Of a stretch of DNA of 64,000 nt, positions 5,737-53,133 are shown piece by piece. This stretch comes from Desulfamplus magnetovallimortis (lineage in GTDB: Bacteria > Desulfobacterota > Desulfobacteria > Desulfobacterales > Desulfobacteraceae). Where the stretch lies: the NCBI RefSeq assembly GCF_900170035.1, contig NZ_LT828544.1, positions 1 through 64,000 of the forward strand, read 5' to 3'. A program made the translations under genes and the position numbers. Within the stretch, counting starts at the first letter, position 1. Each line of letters opens with the position of its first letter. The notes under the pieces are model-generated. The model made no database searches. It was given only the letters and a program-made list of their open reading frames with translations, and was not told the DNA's origin.

Positions 5737-5842
5737 GGCATCTTTGATATAATCTCATAAATATTTTGCACTTTTTCTGCAAAGTTCTCTGAAAAAAGTG
5801 AATATGCTTCAGAAAAGTGTAAAATGGGCAATGAAGGATGCC
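5737..5842 (+). mobile_element. MITE-like element, copy A (hflK-hflC gap)
   Basis: The 106-bp element is bounded by GGCATCTTTGAT and ATGAAGGATGCC, imperfect 12-bp inverted ends. It has no coding capacity and shares the AAAGTGTAAA core with the other copies. The flanking octamers are TTTTTTCC and CTTTTTCT, a decayed version of the 8-bp duplication seen elsewhere. It lies inside the hflK-hflC transcription unit. Confidence 0.7.
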
Positions 5843-16486: not shown

Positions 16487-17407
16487 TTGCTTGTAGCAGG
16501 TAGATTAATAAGCCGGAAAACTTCTTGCAACAGGAATTCCGGAAGGATGTATCGTTTTTGGTTGTCAGCTTTTCTTTCTGCTTTTTGCCTTCAATGTTTG
16601 CTGACAGGTTGTGTTGAGACCCAGGAATTTGTCCTTCTTGAAAACAGGGTGGCTACACTTGAGGCAGTTAATAGAAGGTTGAAAGAGAAGACAGAAGAGT
16701 ATGATAGCAGGTTAAAGGTTGATTTTGTCAATCTTGAAGAGGGCGTTGCAGGGGTTCAGAAAAATCAGCAGCAGAAATATGCAGATATTAATGCAACAAT
16801 TGAGAGTATCAAGAATGATATCCGCCTTTTGAAGGGAGAGATTGAAGAGTCAGAGTATCGACTTGCAAAAGGTGGCGCAGCTCTTCCTGCTTCTGATTTT
16901 GACCGTCTTGACAGTGCAGTTTCAAATAATTACAAGCGTATTGCCAGGCTTGAGAAACATCTTGGACTTTCTCCGCCTGAAGATGTTGCAGGGTTGGAGA
17001 CAGAAGCTTCATCTACTTCAACCAACGGGTCAGGGATGGATGAAGAGAAACTTTACATGACTGCAAAATCACTTCTTGATCAGGGTGCCAACGAAGATGC
17101 AAGGAAACAGTTTGAGCTTTTTATTGAAAAGTTTCCAAAATCATCAAATGCTGATAATGCACGCTTCTGGATTGCAGACAGCTATTACAGGGATAAGTGG
17201 TACGAAAAGGCTATTCTTGAATACCAGAGGGTGATAGAGGAGTACCCAAGGGGTAATAAGGTTCCTGCAGCTCTTCTTAAGCAGGGCTACTCATTTGCAA
17301 CACTTGGTGAGAGAAAAAGTGCCAGATTAATATTGGAGGATGTTATAAACAAATATCCCCAGAGCCAGGAAGCAGCACTTGCAAAGGAAAAACTCAAAAG
17401 TTTGTAG
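16487..17407 (+). CDS. cpoB: CpoB/YbgF, Tol-Pal system TPR protein
   Basis: CpoB coordinates peptidoglycan synthesis with outer-membrane constriction. An N-terminal signal with lipobox LLTGC suggests a lipoprotein. Residues after it form a coiled coil (LENRVATLEAVNRRLKEK), and the C-terminal third is a TPR region with the YbgF pattern LYMTAKSLLDQG, ARKQFELFIEKFP and NARFWIADSYY. I chose TTG 16487 because GGAGG is seven bases upstream. ATG 16469 and ATG 16547 are in-frame alternatives. It closes the tol locus and overlaps ruvC by 29 bases. Confidence 0.88.
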   Translation: MLVAGRLISRKTSCNRNSGRMYRFWLSAFLSAFCLQCLLTGCVETQEFVLLENRVATLEAVNRRLKEKTEEYDSRLKVDFVNLEEGVAGVQKNQQQKYADINATIESIKNDIRLLKGEIEESEYRLAKGGAALPASDFDRLDSAVSNNYKRIARLEKHLGLSPPEDVAGLETEASSTSTNGSGMDEEKLYMTAKSLLDQGANEDARKQFELFIEKFPKSSNADNARFWIADSYYRDKWYEKAILEYQRVIEEYPRGNKVPAALLKQGYSFATLGERKSARLILEDVINKYPQSQEAALAKEKLKSL

Positions 17408-17903
17408 CAAAATAAAGGTTGTGGGGATAGATCCCGGACTTGCAGGTACAGGTGTAGGGCTTATTCACAGTAATGGTTTGAGAAGAATATCAGGATATGC
17501 ATTTGGCAGCATAAAGACTTCAAGCAATGATGCTCTATGTTTACGCCTTGAGCATATTTACTCTGAAACATTGAAATTTCTCAATGAGCAGTCTCCTGAT
17601 ATTGTGGTTCTGGAAGATATCTTTTCCCTTGGTAAATACCCTGGTTCAGGTATAACTCTTGGTAAAGTTACAGGTGTGCTTTTGCTTGCTGCCTGCCAAT
17701 CTGGTGCGACAACTACTGAAATCTCTGTCAGAGAAGCTAAGAAAATTATTTCAGGCACAGGCAGTGCTGATAAGCATCAGGTGGAAAAGTCTGTACGCAG
17801 TTTTCTTGATCACCCTGAACCCATACGTCCTTTTCATGCTTCAGACGCACTGGCCCTTGCCATAGCTGGTTTTTTCAGATATTCCAAAAATTTTATGAAA
17901 TAA
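17379..17903 (+). CDS. ruvC: Holliday junction endonuclease RuvC
   Basis: RuvC cleaves Holliday junctions during recombination, acting with RuvAB. The 174 residues show the RNase H-like catalytic acids: D in VVGIDPGLAGTG, E in VVLEDIF, and the terminal pair in HASDALALAIA. The only start upstream of the first catalytic Asp that leaves a normal N-terminus is TTG 17379, which lies inside the end of cpoB. GTG 17421 would be very close to the active site. ruvA and ruvB follow, although a repeat-filled gap of 262 bases separates ruvC from ruvA. Confidence 0.93.
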   Translation: MQRKNSKVCSKIKVVGIDPGLAGTGVGLIHSNGLRRISGYAFGSIKTSSNDALCLRLEHIYSETLKFLNEQSPDIVVLEDIFSLGKYPGSGITLGKVTGVLLLAACQSGATTTEISVREAKKIISGTGSADKHQVEKSVRSFLDHPEPIRPFHASDALALAIAGFFRYSKNFMK

Positions 17904-17947
17904 TTTCAACAACTTAAGGATTGAAAAATCCTTGAAATCGGATTTTT

Positions 17948-18122
17948 ACCGTGAAAATGATGGCATCTTTCATTTGTCATACACTTTCCTGAACACAATG
18001 CCAGTTTTCCTGGTAGTCTGTTCCGGAAAGTGTAAAGTACTTTCTGCATGATATGAAGGATGCCAAAATGACTATCATTTTTATACTTGGGGGTGATTGA
18101 TACGCAATCATGTCTGTTTACC
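17948..18122 (+). repeat. ACCGTG 62-bp-family unit split by a MITE-like insertion
   Basis: The unit begins ACCGTGAAAATGA at 17948, is interrupted by the element at 17962-18064, and resumes AAAATGACTATCATTTTTAT at 18065, running through TTGGGGGTGATTGATACG to TTTACCGG. Removing the insert and one copy of the duplicated octamer restores a normal unit. Confidence 0.88.
17962..18064 (+). mobile_element. MITE-like element, copy B, nested
   Basis: The 103-bp element has ends GGCATCTTTCAT and ATGAAGGATGCC. It is flanked by AAAATGAT (17954-17961) and AAAATGAC (18065-18072), an 8-bp duplication with one mismatch. Internally TACACTTTCC and GGAAAGTGTAAAGTACTTT form a second inverted pair. It has no open reading frame of note. 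The insertion into a separate repeat unit shows that the element moved as a discrete piece. Confidence 0.9.
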
Positions 18123-18165: not shown

Positions 18166-18951
18166 ATGATAGGATATATTCAAGGTGAGGTTCTCAAGGT
18201 TGCCCAGGACGGTATTTTGCTTCTCGCAGGCCAACTTGGTTATGAGATACTTCTTCCTGTAGTGGTTCTTGAAAAAATTCGTTCCGAGCTTGAAGCTGTA
18301 TCTCAAGGGAATAATATTGACAAAAATGTTTCTGTTGACACTGACTTCAGGAACACTCAATCCAGCAAAGCTGATGATGTCCAAATATTAGGCAATTCTG
18401 CTGGGACAAATTTTTTCATCGCTCTTCATATCTATTATTACCAGACTGAAAGGCAGCCAAAACCTGTGCTTATTGGTTTTAATTCAGAGGATGAAAAAGA
18501 GTTTTTTCAGTTATTTATTTCTGTAGATGCAATAGGGCCTCTTAAGGCTGTAAAGGCCATGGAAAAACCTGTTGGGCATATAGCCAGAGCAATTGAGTCC
18601 AAGGATGTGGATTTTCTGTCTCACCTTAAAGGGATCGGCAAAAGAACAGCACAGAAAATTGTTGCATCTCTTCATGGTAAGGTTTCAAGGTTTGTGACAG
18701 GCAGCATGGATAACCATGAGGTTTCTTCTGATGATGCCTCTTTTGGAGGGACTGTTTATAAAGGAGCTACTGCCTCTTCTGTCATTCCCGCCACCAGGAA
18801 AATCATTGGAGGGCAGGTTGTTGATGTGCTTGTGGAGCAGCTTGGCTTTACGTCGGCTGTGGCAAGAAGAATGGTCTCAATTGCAATTGAGAAAAATCCA
18901 GCCATTGAAACACCTGAGCAGCTTCTGGATGCAGTGCTGAAGCTAAGATAA
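18166..18951 (+). CDS. ruvA: Holliday junction DNA helicase subunit RuvA (enlarged)
   Basis: RuvA binds four-way junctions and loads RuvB. The 261 residues begin MIGYIQGEVLKVAQDGILLL (domain I OB fold), include the helix-hairpin-helix motif LKGIGKRTAQKIVASL in domain II, and end in the RuvB-binding domain III (VDVLVEQLGFTSAVARRMV). The family is usually about 200 residues. The surplus is mainly a polar insertion around residues 46-85 in domain I (KNVSVDTDFRNTQSSKADD), plus a longer linker near 180-205. ruvB follows after 61 bases. Confidence 0.93.
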   Translation: MIGYIQGEVLKVAQDGILLLAGQLGYEILLPVVVLEKIRSELEAVSQGNNIDKNVSVDTDFRNTQSSKADDVQILGNSAGTNFFIALHIYYYQTERQPKPVLIGFNSEDEKEFFQLFISVDAIGPLKAVKAMEKPVGHIARAIESKDVDFLSHLKGIGKRTAQKIVASLHGKVSRFVTGSMDNHEVSSDDASFGGTVYKGATASSVIPATRKIIGGQVVDVLVEQLGFTSAVARRMVSIAIEKNPAIETPEQLLDAVLKLR

Positions 18952-25390: not shown

Positions 25391-25510
25391 GGCATCCTTC
25401 AAATACTCAAGAAAGTACTTTACACTTTTCGTAGGTAAATCCCACAGCAAAGGGGTATCATTACTGAAAGTGTGATAACTGAAAGTGTGAAGCGGAAAAT
25501 GAAACATGTC
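25391..25510 (-). mobile_element. MITE-like element, copy E, perfect 8-bp target duplication
   Basis: The ends are GGCATCCTTCAA and ATGAAACATGTC, in the opposite orientation to the other copies (AAAGTACTTTACACTTTT appears first). The element is flanked by GGAAAACC at 25383-25390 and GGAAAACC at 25511-25518, a perfect octamer duplication. Length is 120 bp because the internal ACTGAAAGTGTGA is duplicated. It lies in the 478-base HU-CheX gap. Apart from the HU promoter I see nothing else in that gap. Confidence 0.9.
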
Positions 25511-44292: not shown

Positions 44293-45408
44293 ATGAACGA
44301 CCTTAAAGTTACAATAGGCTTTTCACCACAGAATATATCAAAAACCAATCAGGCAGAAACCATTCAGAAAAACCTGACCGAGCTTTTAAATTACAGACCC
44401 TTTGTTTATGATCTCCATTTTCCCCATTACAATCCTCAGATATGTGCAAGTGGCCGGCCTGTTAACAGTGCCATGTCACTTGATGATGCCCGAAATCTTA
44501 CATTTCATATGATTTCATGGAATCAGGAAAATACAAAATTCAAACTTACCTTGCTGCTCAATTATCTTCTGCATGATAATTATAAGGTTGTTGTTGAAAA
44601 TGTTGCAAAAGAGTTCTATCCAAGGGGGATAAGAAGCGTTGTTGCTGCTGATCTTGAACTTGTTAAACGCCTGAAGGATAGAATGCCTGACCTTGAGATA
44701 CAGGGTTCATGTCTCTCCAACCGTATGACTGTAGAGGAGCTTGAGGAGGAGAGAAAGGAAGGGGTAACCCTCCATAATCCTTCTGTAAACATCATAAGAG
44801 ACCCTGCTCAATTGAAGCGCAATGCTGAAGCCGGATACTCTTCAAAGGTTATTGCATTTGAAGGGTGTCTCAATCACTGTCCTGATGAGAGTACTCCATA
44901 CGGTCATCGCTGGTATCTTGCAAGAAGCCTTACCCAGGAAAGTTCTTTTTGTACAAAAAAACGGATTGCATCTGATCCACGGTATTTTTTCAAGGCCAAC
45001 TGGATCACGGTAAACCGTTTCAAAAAGTTGATGCCCTTTATAAAGGTTGTGAAACTGCCGCGTTGCAGAAGCTCCATCTCCTTTGCACTCTCTACACTCA
45101 TTGATTCTTTCAATAATAATACTTCATACAATATTGTGGATTTTATCGGAGCAGGATATCAGATGTATCTTGCAAGGGATGTCGGGAATATTCCGTCTCA
45201 TATTTTTGATGATTCTTTTTTTGATACACTGGAGAATTGCCGTATGGATTGCAAAGAGAGGGGCTGTCTGCTCTGCTTTGACAAGATGCGGCAGATAAAG
45301 AGATTCAGTTATAAACAGAAGCGCCTTGCGCGTCGTGCCCAAAGAAAACTTCCTGACAGAACATGGTTTGTGGATAAAAGATGGCGCAATGAAAAGACAA
45401 TTCTTTAA
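44293..45408 (+). CDS. Cysteine-rich U32-peptidase-like protein
   Basis: The 371-residue protein resembles the U32 / YhbU-UbiU-like TIM-barrel group: early strand motifs (VVVENVAKEFYPRGI, VVAADLELVKRL, EIQGSCLSNRM), then FEGCLNHCP and paired cysteines near the C-terminus (CRMDCKERGCLLC). The spacing would suit Fe-S or zinc binding. Related proteins act in ubiquinone hydroxylation or tRNA/prephenate-linked modification, but I cannot choose a role. The C-terminus is very basic. It follows the rhomboid gene after 40 bases and is probably the last gene of that run. Confidence 0.65.
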   Translation: MNDLKVTIGFSPQNISKTNQAETIQKNLTELLNYRPFVYDLHFPHYNPQICASGRPVNSAMSLDDARNLTFHMISWNQENTKFKLTLLLNYLLHDNYKVVVENVAKEFYPRGIRSVVAADLELVKRLKDRMPDLEIQGSCLSNRMTVEELEEERKEGVTLHNPSVNIIRDPAQLKRNAEAGYSSKVIAFEGCLNHCPDESTPYGHRWYLARSLTQESSFCTKKRIASDPRYFFKANWITVNRFKKLMPFIKVVKLPRCRSSISFALSTLIDSFNNNTSYNIVDFIGAGYQMYLARDVGNIPSHIFDDSFFDTLENCRMDCKERGCLLCFDKMRQIKRFSYKQKRLARRAQRKLPDRTWFVDKRWRNEKTIL

Positions 45409-45480
45409 TTCTACTTTGTTAACTTCTGTAAATTGTCTGATTCAGACAGCAAAAAATGAGAAGCTAACAAAGCACTTTTT

Positions 45481-45586
45481 GGCATGCTTCATTTTTCAGT
45501 TTACACTTTCCGAAGAAAAAACACTGAATGGCGGTAATCCTTCACAAAAAAGTGTAAAGTACTTTTGGTGTCATATGAAGGATGCC
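45481..45586 (+). mobile_element. MITE-like element, copy C, perfect 8-bp target duplication
   Basis: The 106-bp element starts GGCATGCTTCAT and ends ATGAAGGATGCC. It is flanked by CACTTTTT at 45473-45480 and CACTTTTT at 45587-45594. The internal pair TTTACACTTTCC / AAAAAGTGTAAAGTACTTTT is conserved with copies B and D. Confidence 0.92.
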
Positions 45587-45650
45587 CACTTTTTAAGGGA
45601 ATTTATGGCTGATGAGTCAATGATAGAGTTGATAATTCGGGGAGAATGTA

Positions 45651-46031
45651 ATGTATAACGGACATATTGTTATTGACTGTAACGGAATGGAAACTATTTT
45701 TGATTCTATTGGAAATATAAATTTTGATCGCGATCAGCTTCTTGTTACTGTTCGTTCACAAAATGAGATAGCAGGATGGCACTGGGATGGTTTTGCTGCC
45801 CTTTTTCAACATCTAAGTGATGGTTCTGCATCTTTGCAGGGTCATGAAGCAAAATGTGAAGCCATGTTGGGCTTTAAAGGAGGGCAGGAAAAATTAATGA
45901 CAGTTTCAGGTTTCAAGGCCGTAGAACTGAACCCTTCAAGCAATCTTGTTTTAATAAAGGGAAGCACACATTCGGCATTTATTAACTGTGACTTCCTGAA
46001 ATGGTATCGTATTTACAATAGACATTTATAA
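45651..46031 (+). CDS. Unknown 126-residue protein
   Basis: I do not recognise this small cytoplasmic-looking protein. It starts MYNGHIVIDCNGMETIFDSI, has predicted beta-rich character (alternating hydrophobics, LLVTVRSQNEIAGWHWDGF) and five cysteines or histidines without a clear metal motif. GGGGAG lies eight bases upstream of ATG 45651. It sits immediately after a MITE-like copy and before an acetyltransferase. It shares a similar size and style with the unknown protein at 47.8 kb, but I cannot show homology by eye. Confidence 0.55.
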   Translation: MYNGHIVIDCNGMETIFDSIGNINFDRDQLLVTVRSQNEIAGWHWDGFAALFQHLSDGSASLQGHEAKCEAMLGFKGGQEKLMTVSGFKAVELNPSSNLVLIKGSTHSAFINCDFLKWYRIYNRHL

Positions 46032-52903: not shown

Positions 52904-52943
52904 AATCGCTTAAAGTTTTACTGGTTGTATATCAACTGTTTTT

Positions 52944-53133
52944 ACCGTGGAAATAGATACAAATTTCCATATTCGGGGGTGGCTGGATGCCGGCCATGAC
53001 CGTTTACCGTGGAAATGACTATCATTTTTATATTTGGGGGAGATTGATACGTAACAATCATGCCCGTTTACCATGAAAATGACTAACATTTTTATACTTG
53101 GGGGTGATTGATACGCAATCATACCCGTTTACT
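52944..53133 (+). repeat. Tandem array of three ACCGTG 62-64-bp units
   Basis: Units start at 52944, 53006 and 53070, and the next ACTGG start is at 53131. Each reads ACCRTGRAAAT, an A/T-rich segment with internal complementarity, TTGGGGGTGRYTGRATRC, and CATGNCCGTTT before the next unit. Unit 1 has GGAAATAGATACAAATTTCC, which can form a hairpin. Single copies occur at 7251, 17948 (interrupted), 26922 and partially at 13914 and 51434. Confidence 0.9.

Follow-up and report, generated by a model that had tools for sequence, protein, structure and literature searches.

The window analysed here comprises positions 1 to 64,000 of contig NZ_LT828544.1 of Desulfamplus magnetovallimortis. Between a ruvC-like open reading frame (ORF) at 17379-17903 and a ruvA-like ORF at 18166-18951, both putative names from reading of the sequence, the window harbours a 103-bp non-coding block inserted into a 62-bp repeat unit. 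The features of this site, the other family members in the window and the uninterrupted repeat units are the following.

17962 to 18064, plus strand: MITE copy of 103 bp, non-coding, short (left) arm first (sequence, end-pair search).
17954 to 17961, unstranded: left target octamer AAAATGAT, differing from the 62-bp unit at one base (alignment).
18065 to 18072, unstranded: right target octamer AAAATGAC (alignment).
17962 to 17975, plus strand: left terminal repeat GGCATCTTTCATTT (sequence).
18051 to 18064, minus strand: right terminal repeat GGCATCCTTCATAT, as read on the minus strand (sequence).
17980 to 17989, plus strand: left inner motif TACACTTTCC, in an arm that lacks 3 bp relative to the 106-bp class (sequence).
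18027 to 18036, minus strand: right inner motif TTTACACTTT in minus reading, starting 28 bases inward of the right end (sequence).
17945 to 17961, plus strand: left part of the interrupted 62-bp unit, TTTACCGTG plus the octamer (alignment).
18065 to 18120, plus strand: right part of the interrupted 62-bp unit, ending in TTTA (alignment).
5737 to 5842, unstranded: second member, 106 bp, one end mismatch, octamers differing at two positions; its right end overlaps the start of the ORF from 5838.
25391 to 25510, unstranded: third member, decayed, 120 bp, three end mismatches, identical octamers GGAAAACC.
45481 to 45586, plus strand: fourth member, 106 bp, one end mismatch, identical octamers CACTTTTT; it overlaps a putative 110-aa ORF at 45326-45658.
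52941 to 53132, plus strand: uninterrupted array of the 62-bp unit, with starts at 52941, 53003 and 53067, a paralogous empty site (alignment).

An earlier sequence-only reading had placed an insert with inverted ends inside the 62-bp unit, and both its coordinates and the flanks AAAATGAT/AAAATGAC were confirmed. The termini of the block, GGCATCTTTCAT and (as reverse complement) GGCATCCTTCAT, are inverted copies of GGCATCYTTCAT. The ends had been given as 12 bp long; the terminal repeat measures 14 bp instead (GGCATCYTTCATWT), and a second, inner inverted motif, TTTACACTTT, is present. With 103 bp, the copy falls 3 bp short of the common 106-bp class, a difference located in the short arm, and it contains an inner inverted repeat (25 bases, 84%). 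The Rfam scan of the window detected nothing besides one tRNA. Removal of the insert and one octamer restores the repeat unit, as had been proposed, and the restored unit aligns without gaps to the first 63 bases of the copy at 53067. This alignment has five mismatches when the right octamer is kept and six when the left one is kept, so the altered base lies in the left octamer. Against the copy at 53003, the restored unit aligns with a 3-base gap.

The search of the host genome with the 62-bp unit gave at least 51 match rows (40 of 275 candidates scored), and the tandem units have TTTA in common. The proposal that the unit might always contain the 103-bp block fails, since many uninterrupted copies were found. 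A TTTACCGTG-like motif stands directly before the duplication in six of 59 host copies (octamers differing at no more than two positions), and for five of these six a GGGG run follows downstream, as in the 62-bp unit; the unit is therefore a repeated target. The claimed order of events, with the unit older than the insertion, holds at 17962, but not as a general rule, as it is reversed in locus L048 (1505-1561), where a 158-bp-class MITE has the 62-bp unit within its core, flanked by TTTA on both sides. By reading of the sequence, locus L049 (about 1501-1565) contains the same unit within a 158-bp-class core with TTTA flanks. The 62-bp unit itself seems to behave like a tiny mobile unit. Nested copies, which supply relative dates for insertions, were also found among the family members themselves. 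At L063 a 184-bp member lies within a 158-bp-class member, and the outer copy without the insert and one octamer aligns gaplessly to an intact 159-bp member, while at L067 a 106-bp member lies within a 184-bp-class member with GAAAAAAT at both flanks.

The host genome (G000) is a draft of 6,677,998 bases in 108 contigs, with a completeness of 97.3%. The 103-bp block gave at least 59 match rows in this genome (40 of 426 first-look candidates scored), 41 of which span 92 or more of the 103 positions. The genome-wide search for paired ends, suggested in the earlier reading, revealed 47 exact end pairs at 84-114 bp spacing and none in the reversed control. Single exact 14-base ends numbered 211 and 213 on the two strands (424), with 0 and 0 in the control. 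The window contains four members, about one per 16 kb, and extrapolation of this density leads to an estimate, rather than a count, of roughly 400 copies genome-wide. Besides the common 106-bp class, size classes of 84, 126, 158-160 and 184 bp with identical ends were found in the host. The copy at 17962 is located between frames of 100 aa or more, and the one at 25391-25510 between frames of 80 aa or more. Locus L084 (about 1501-1568) holds a member of about 68 bp, whose arms nearly touch. Runs of N occur within family members of the host assembly at L054 and L066, where a full-length copy could hide.

Family-wide, the data bear out the earlier claim that the element transposed and duplicated 8 bp of its target. 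Fetched loci were scanned for ends with up to two mismatches each and three in all, 60-420 bp apart, with the inner motif on at least one side; after removal of duplicates, and with false and nested pairings retained, 179 pairs were obtained. Identical 8-mers flank 93 of the 179 pairs and 8-mers with at most one difference flank 119, whereas 7-, 9- and 10-mers are identical in none and 6-mers in one. By set, identical 8-mers were found in 42 of 78 host pairs, 11 of 21 pairs from relatives, 39 of 76 from wider genomes and one of four in loci from L203 on. Re-paired flanks, used as control, differed at no more than one of eight positions in 35 of 3498 cases (21/1536, 8/396, 6/1507 and 0/59). For the main element in L001-L030, loci fetched by similarity to the block, octamers were identical in 19 of 30, one off in six, two off in three and three off in two. 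Octamers differing at three or more of eight positions flank 19 of the 78 host pairs, which are partly false or nested pairings and partly decayed copies. The target octamers are A/T-rich at the six central positions. This family-wide test is far stronger than the chance estimate for the single locus, where a random octamer pair would agree within one difference at p of about 5e-4 (given the base composition, one pair). The 103-bp block is thus short and non-coding, with inverted ends, high copy number at unrelated sites and a fixed 8-bp duplication, which are the traits of a MITE.

The two ends of the family members are not equal. The inner motif TTTACACTTT is preceded by 19 bases on one side and by 28 on the other, which makes the left arm 29 bases long and the right arm 38; both consist of the 14-bp terminal repeat and the inner motif. 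Both inner motifs are present in 103 of the 179 pairs, distributed as 99 short plus long, three short plus short, one odd and no long plus long. This predominance of unequal arms (99 of 103) indicates that left and right ends differ. By analogy, these unequal arms resemble those of elements whose transposase distinguishes its ends, and the same may apply here.

The search for a full-length element with matching ends, also suggested earlier, was successful in related Desulfobacterales. Genome G151 contains four copies of 1923 bp without a single base difference between them; the short and the long arm enclose an open frame that spans 538 codons from stop to stop. Exact 8-bp duplications flank three of the four, and the fourth is without matching octamers. 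Genome G179 contains at L261 a 1951-bp pair flanked on each side by TGATTTTT, its frame broken, and at L245 a left arm followed by a 552-codon frame, for which the right arm was not found. At L248 both ends are present and the octamers disagree at three of eight positions; L246, L250 and L251 show the left arm and then the start of the transposase gene. L250 belongs to G008, of the host's genus, where the left arm precedes a 196-codon frame up to the contig end; this frame shares 44% identity over 158 aa with the G151 protein. Compared with the consensus of 50 host MITE copies, arm identity is 26/29 and 31/38 in G151, 27/29 and 30/38 in G179, and 23/29 for the left arm in G008. Intact full elements, with the same arms as the MITE, were directly observed in other families of the order Desulfobacterales, and the host's genus shows a fragment only. 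The further MITE trait of ends common to a predicted autonomous element is found via relatives and not in the host's own genome.

The arm pattern was present in 17 of 58 genomes, host counted, and the left-arm pattern in at least 102 stretches of bacterial and archaeal species genomes. Taxa among the matches listed include Desulfobacterales, Desulfococcaceae, Desulfamplus, Desulfobacter, Methylococcaceae and Nitrosomonadales, as well as Achromatium, Sedimenticola, Cytophagales and Candidatus Syntrophoarchaeum. Many of the matches are in metagenome bins, and isolated odd taxa may be binning errors. Methylococcales bins show the left arm followed by a frame running off the contig. Three of four genomes reached via the Methylococcales and Nitrosomonadales loci gave ten matches, all with the same terminal repeat and nine with an intact 29-base arm; in all ten the terminal repeat precedes a frame cut by the contig end. 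A 46-aa piece of the Methylococcales frame matched one of 389 genomes of the host's order, in the gene at L243 (28 aa, 57%, E 0.00125), and this N-terminus matched no Pfam or NCBIfam family and gave weak plasmid and phage matches only. At L243 (355-2370) a family member interrupts the transposase gene at CGTTAAAA; one part of the gene is inverted, and both arms lie outside. The N-part of this transposase has matches in 16 of the 389 genomes at E 1e-5, and none in the host draft (97.3% complete, 108 contigs) at the same threshold. Plasmids and phages were set aside as carriers of the ends, since the 39-base end retrieved one weak plasmid record (81.6% over 97%, E 0.5), four partial phage records and no viral contigs. 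At L111 the sequence after the left arm resembles part of a group II intron (putative).

The protein of the full-length element is consistent with a DDE transposase that carries a DxxH pair, on the basis of conserved residues and of one N-part above the Pfam ISL3 cut-off. D169, D223 and E460, together with the DxxH pair (D244, H247), are invariant in eight aligned proteins including distant relatives. Residues are counted from the start of the open frame and these five are among 25 invariant columns, so that D169, D223 and E460 are the probable catalytic choice. A DxxH pair in DDE transposases is a trait of the IS256/ISL3 group. The full-length proteins scanned (L247, L245 and L248) all remained below Pfam and NCBIfam cut-offs. 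With the Pfam ISL3 model, the N-part of L243 passes (27.4 against a cut-off of 23 bits) and full-length L248 reaches 17.1 of 23, while L247 and L245 gave no ISL3 match; the best NCBIfam ISL3 score was 13.1 against 180 bits. Scores for IS256 were 12.3-19.2 of 21 bits in Pfam and at most 24.2 of 150 in NCBIfam. The transposase was not confirmed in any viral contig, comparisons with PHROGs gave none and one at E 0.04, and solved structures yielded no convincing match.

Two Pfam DUF6399 proteins (PF19936), at L259 (529-2387) and L263 (231-1989), are enclosed by inverted repeats that start with GG and are flanked by exact 8-bp duplications, TCATTGTG and GTAAACTA, which suggests that the DUF6399 domain belongs to transposases. 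Similar to the 1.9-kb element, they possess GG ends and 8-bp duplications, and their sequences share the same invariant residues and 18% identity over the alignment. However, their terminal sequence is another one, and DUF6399 was not among the matches of the three scanned proteins. The 1.9-kb-element transposase and L259/L263 may form one wider clade with an 8-bp stagger, as judged from few cases; the same search found no GG-starting paired ends with an 8-bp duplication at L255, L258 and L267. A distant transposase relative with 25% identity is present at L267, on the Acaryochloris conjugative plasmid pREC4, annotated as two hypothetical proteins. The literature search for DUF6399 together with transposase found no paper.

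We consider it highly probable (roughly 0.92) that the 103-bp block is a MITE that retains only the two IS arms, with the DDE transposase of the full-length element of about 1.9 kb as its proposed mover. MITEs in general are moved in trans. Here, the full-length element would make the DDE-type transposase, which would bind both MITE arms, cleave at the GG termini and then attach the cut ends to an A/T-rich target via 8-bp staggered nicks; gap repair would then produce the 8-bp duplication. The movement in trans by this transposase and the exact cut sites are predicted from sequence. The transposase was probably active in the recent past of the host, although no copy was found in the host draft.

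Other origins of the block were also weighed. The short length, high copy number and hairpin-forming sequence, with the 84% inner inverted repeat, would suit REP/REPIN-like palindromes, which a Y1 (HUH) single-strand transposase would spread and which would lack a target duplication. HUH elements are not known to leave a duplication of this kind, and REP/REPIN differ from a MITE in mechanism and duplications. The sharp 8-bp duplications contradict this origin, as does the full-length partner with its DDE-type pattern, which leaves it extremely improbable. Less remote, and nonetheless unlikely, is a derivation from a catalogued ISL3, IS256 or IS1595 family. 8-bp duplications and GG ends suit all three families, the N-part of L243 exceeds the Pfam ISL3 cut-off, and a weaker IS256 signal is present. 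However, the Pfam models of these families found no match in the host genome at E 0.001, the NCBIfam scores for ISL3 and IS256 stayed below their cut-offs, and 30 IS1595 loci fetched from relatives, some cut by contig ends, lacked the 12-base end at up to one mismatch. With no host match to the three Pfam models and no such end at the IS1595 loci, IS1595, ISL3 and IS256 were set aside as the mover.

The copies could also be regulatory elements, such as bidirectional terminators or boxes, fixed under selection after transposition had long ended. In the window, the four copies are located between the main frames or just touch one, and no transposase was found in the host draft, as would be expected in that case. 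Identical octamers in more than half of the host pairs, the nested insertions at L063 and L067, and similar arms around exchanged cores argue against it, and we regard it as very unlikely. The copies may later have come to serve as terminators. The locus was correctly read. It is a MITE inserted with duplication of 8 target bases, the mechanism is ordinary, and the present analysis adds the family size, the two-arm structure and the full-length partner in relatives.

Several known repeats resemble this family. MITEAba12 of Acinetobacter (PMC6382973), the hupL MITE of Thiomargarita nelsonii (PMC4853749) and the MITE-like Thiohalocapsa repeats (PMC10907252) are, in the available excerpts of these papers, likewise short, with inverted ends and many copies or repeats. 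The present family differs from them, as far as the excerpts describe them, in its 8-bp duplication, its asymmetric arms with an inner motif and the identification of a matching full-length element. For the hupL MITE, the available text reports a 10-bp direct repeat, a 19-bp inverted repeat and no likely parent (PMC4853749). This MITE may still belong to the present family. Literature searches by end and inner-motif strings, judged by title, brought up nothing related among the papers listed, and no paper on this family was recognised by title among the MITE matches listed. At the protein level, ISL3 (PF01610) and IS256 (PF00872) share the DDE pattern, the DxxH pair and weak profile similarity with the partner transposase, whereas the full-length proteins fall under the cut-offs. 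The end sequences known for ISL3/IS256 differ from that of this element. REP/REPIN are also short repeated palindromes; in the present family 8-bp duplications are present.

The cores between the arms were analysed in the 119 members with octamers at up to one difference, of which one with N was removed. The remaining 118 cores form 39 clusters, and one representative per cluster was folded. The folding z was below -2 in 14 of the 39 representatives, with a median of -1.6; strong palindromes are thus common and not universal. Some long cores are near-perfect hairpins, and several resemble short palindromes that are presumably familiar from many bacteria. The arms were found in other phyla as well, around unrelated, often palindromic cores. 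The plasmid search with three core queries gave 0, 0 and 2 records. Twelve core queries in the fetched loci, mostly chosen for having ends, revealed five places without ends in reach and one at a contig edge; on inspection, L124 alone looks truly end-less among the flagged matches in these loci.

Tentatively, the arms may act as a cross-phylum 'shuttle', an undescribed IS family whose gene-less derivatives carry interchangeable, often palindromic cores as cargo of one transposase system, an idea that we consider possible and still rather doubtful. If it is true, unrelated short palindromic repeats in many bacterial chromosomes would have been spread by one transposase system. An orphan small repeat is now tied to a plausible mover. 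Near-constant arms around many unrelated cores, in several phyla, open a direct route to two questions: by what means short palindromic repeats spread, and whether the cores serve a function.
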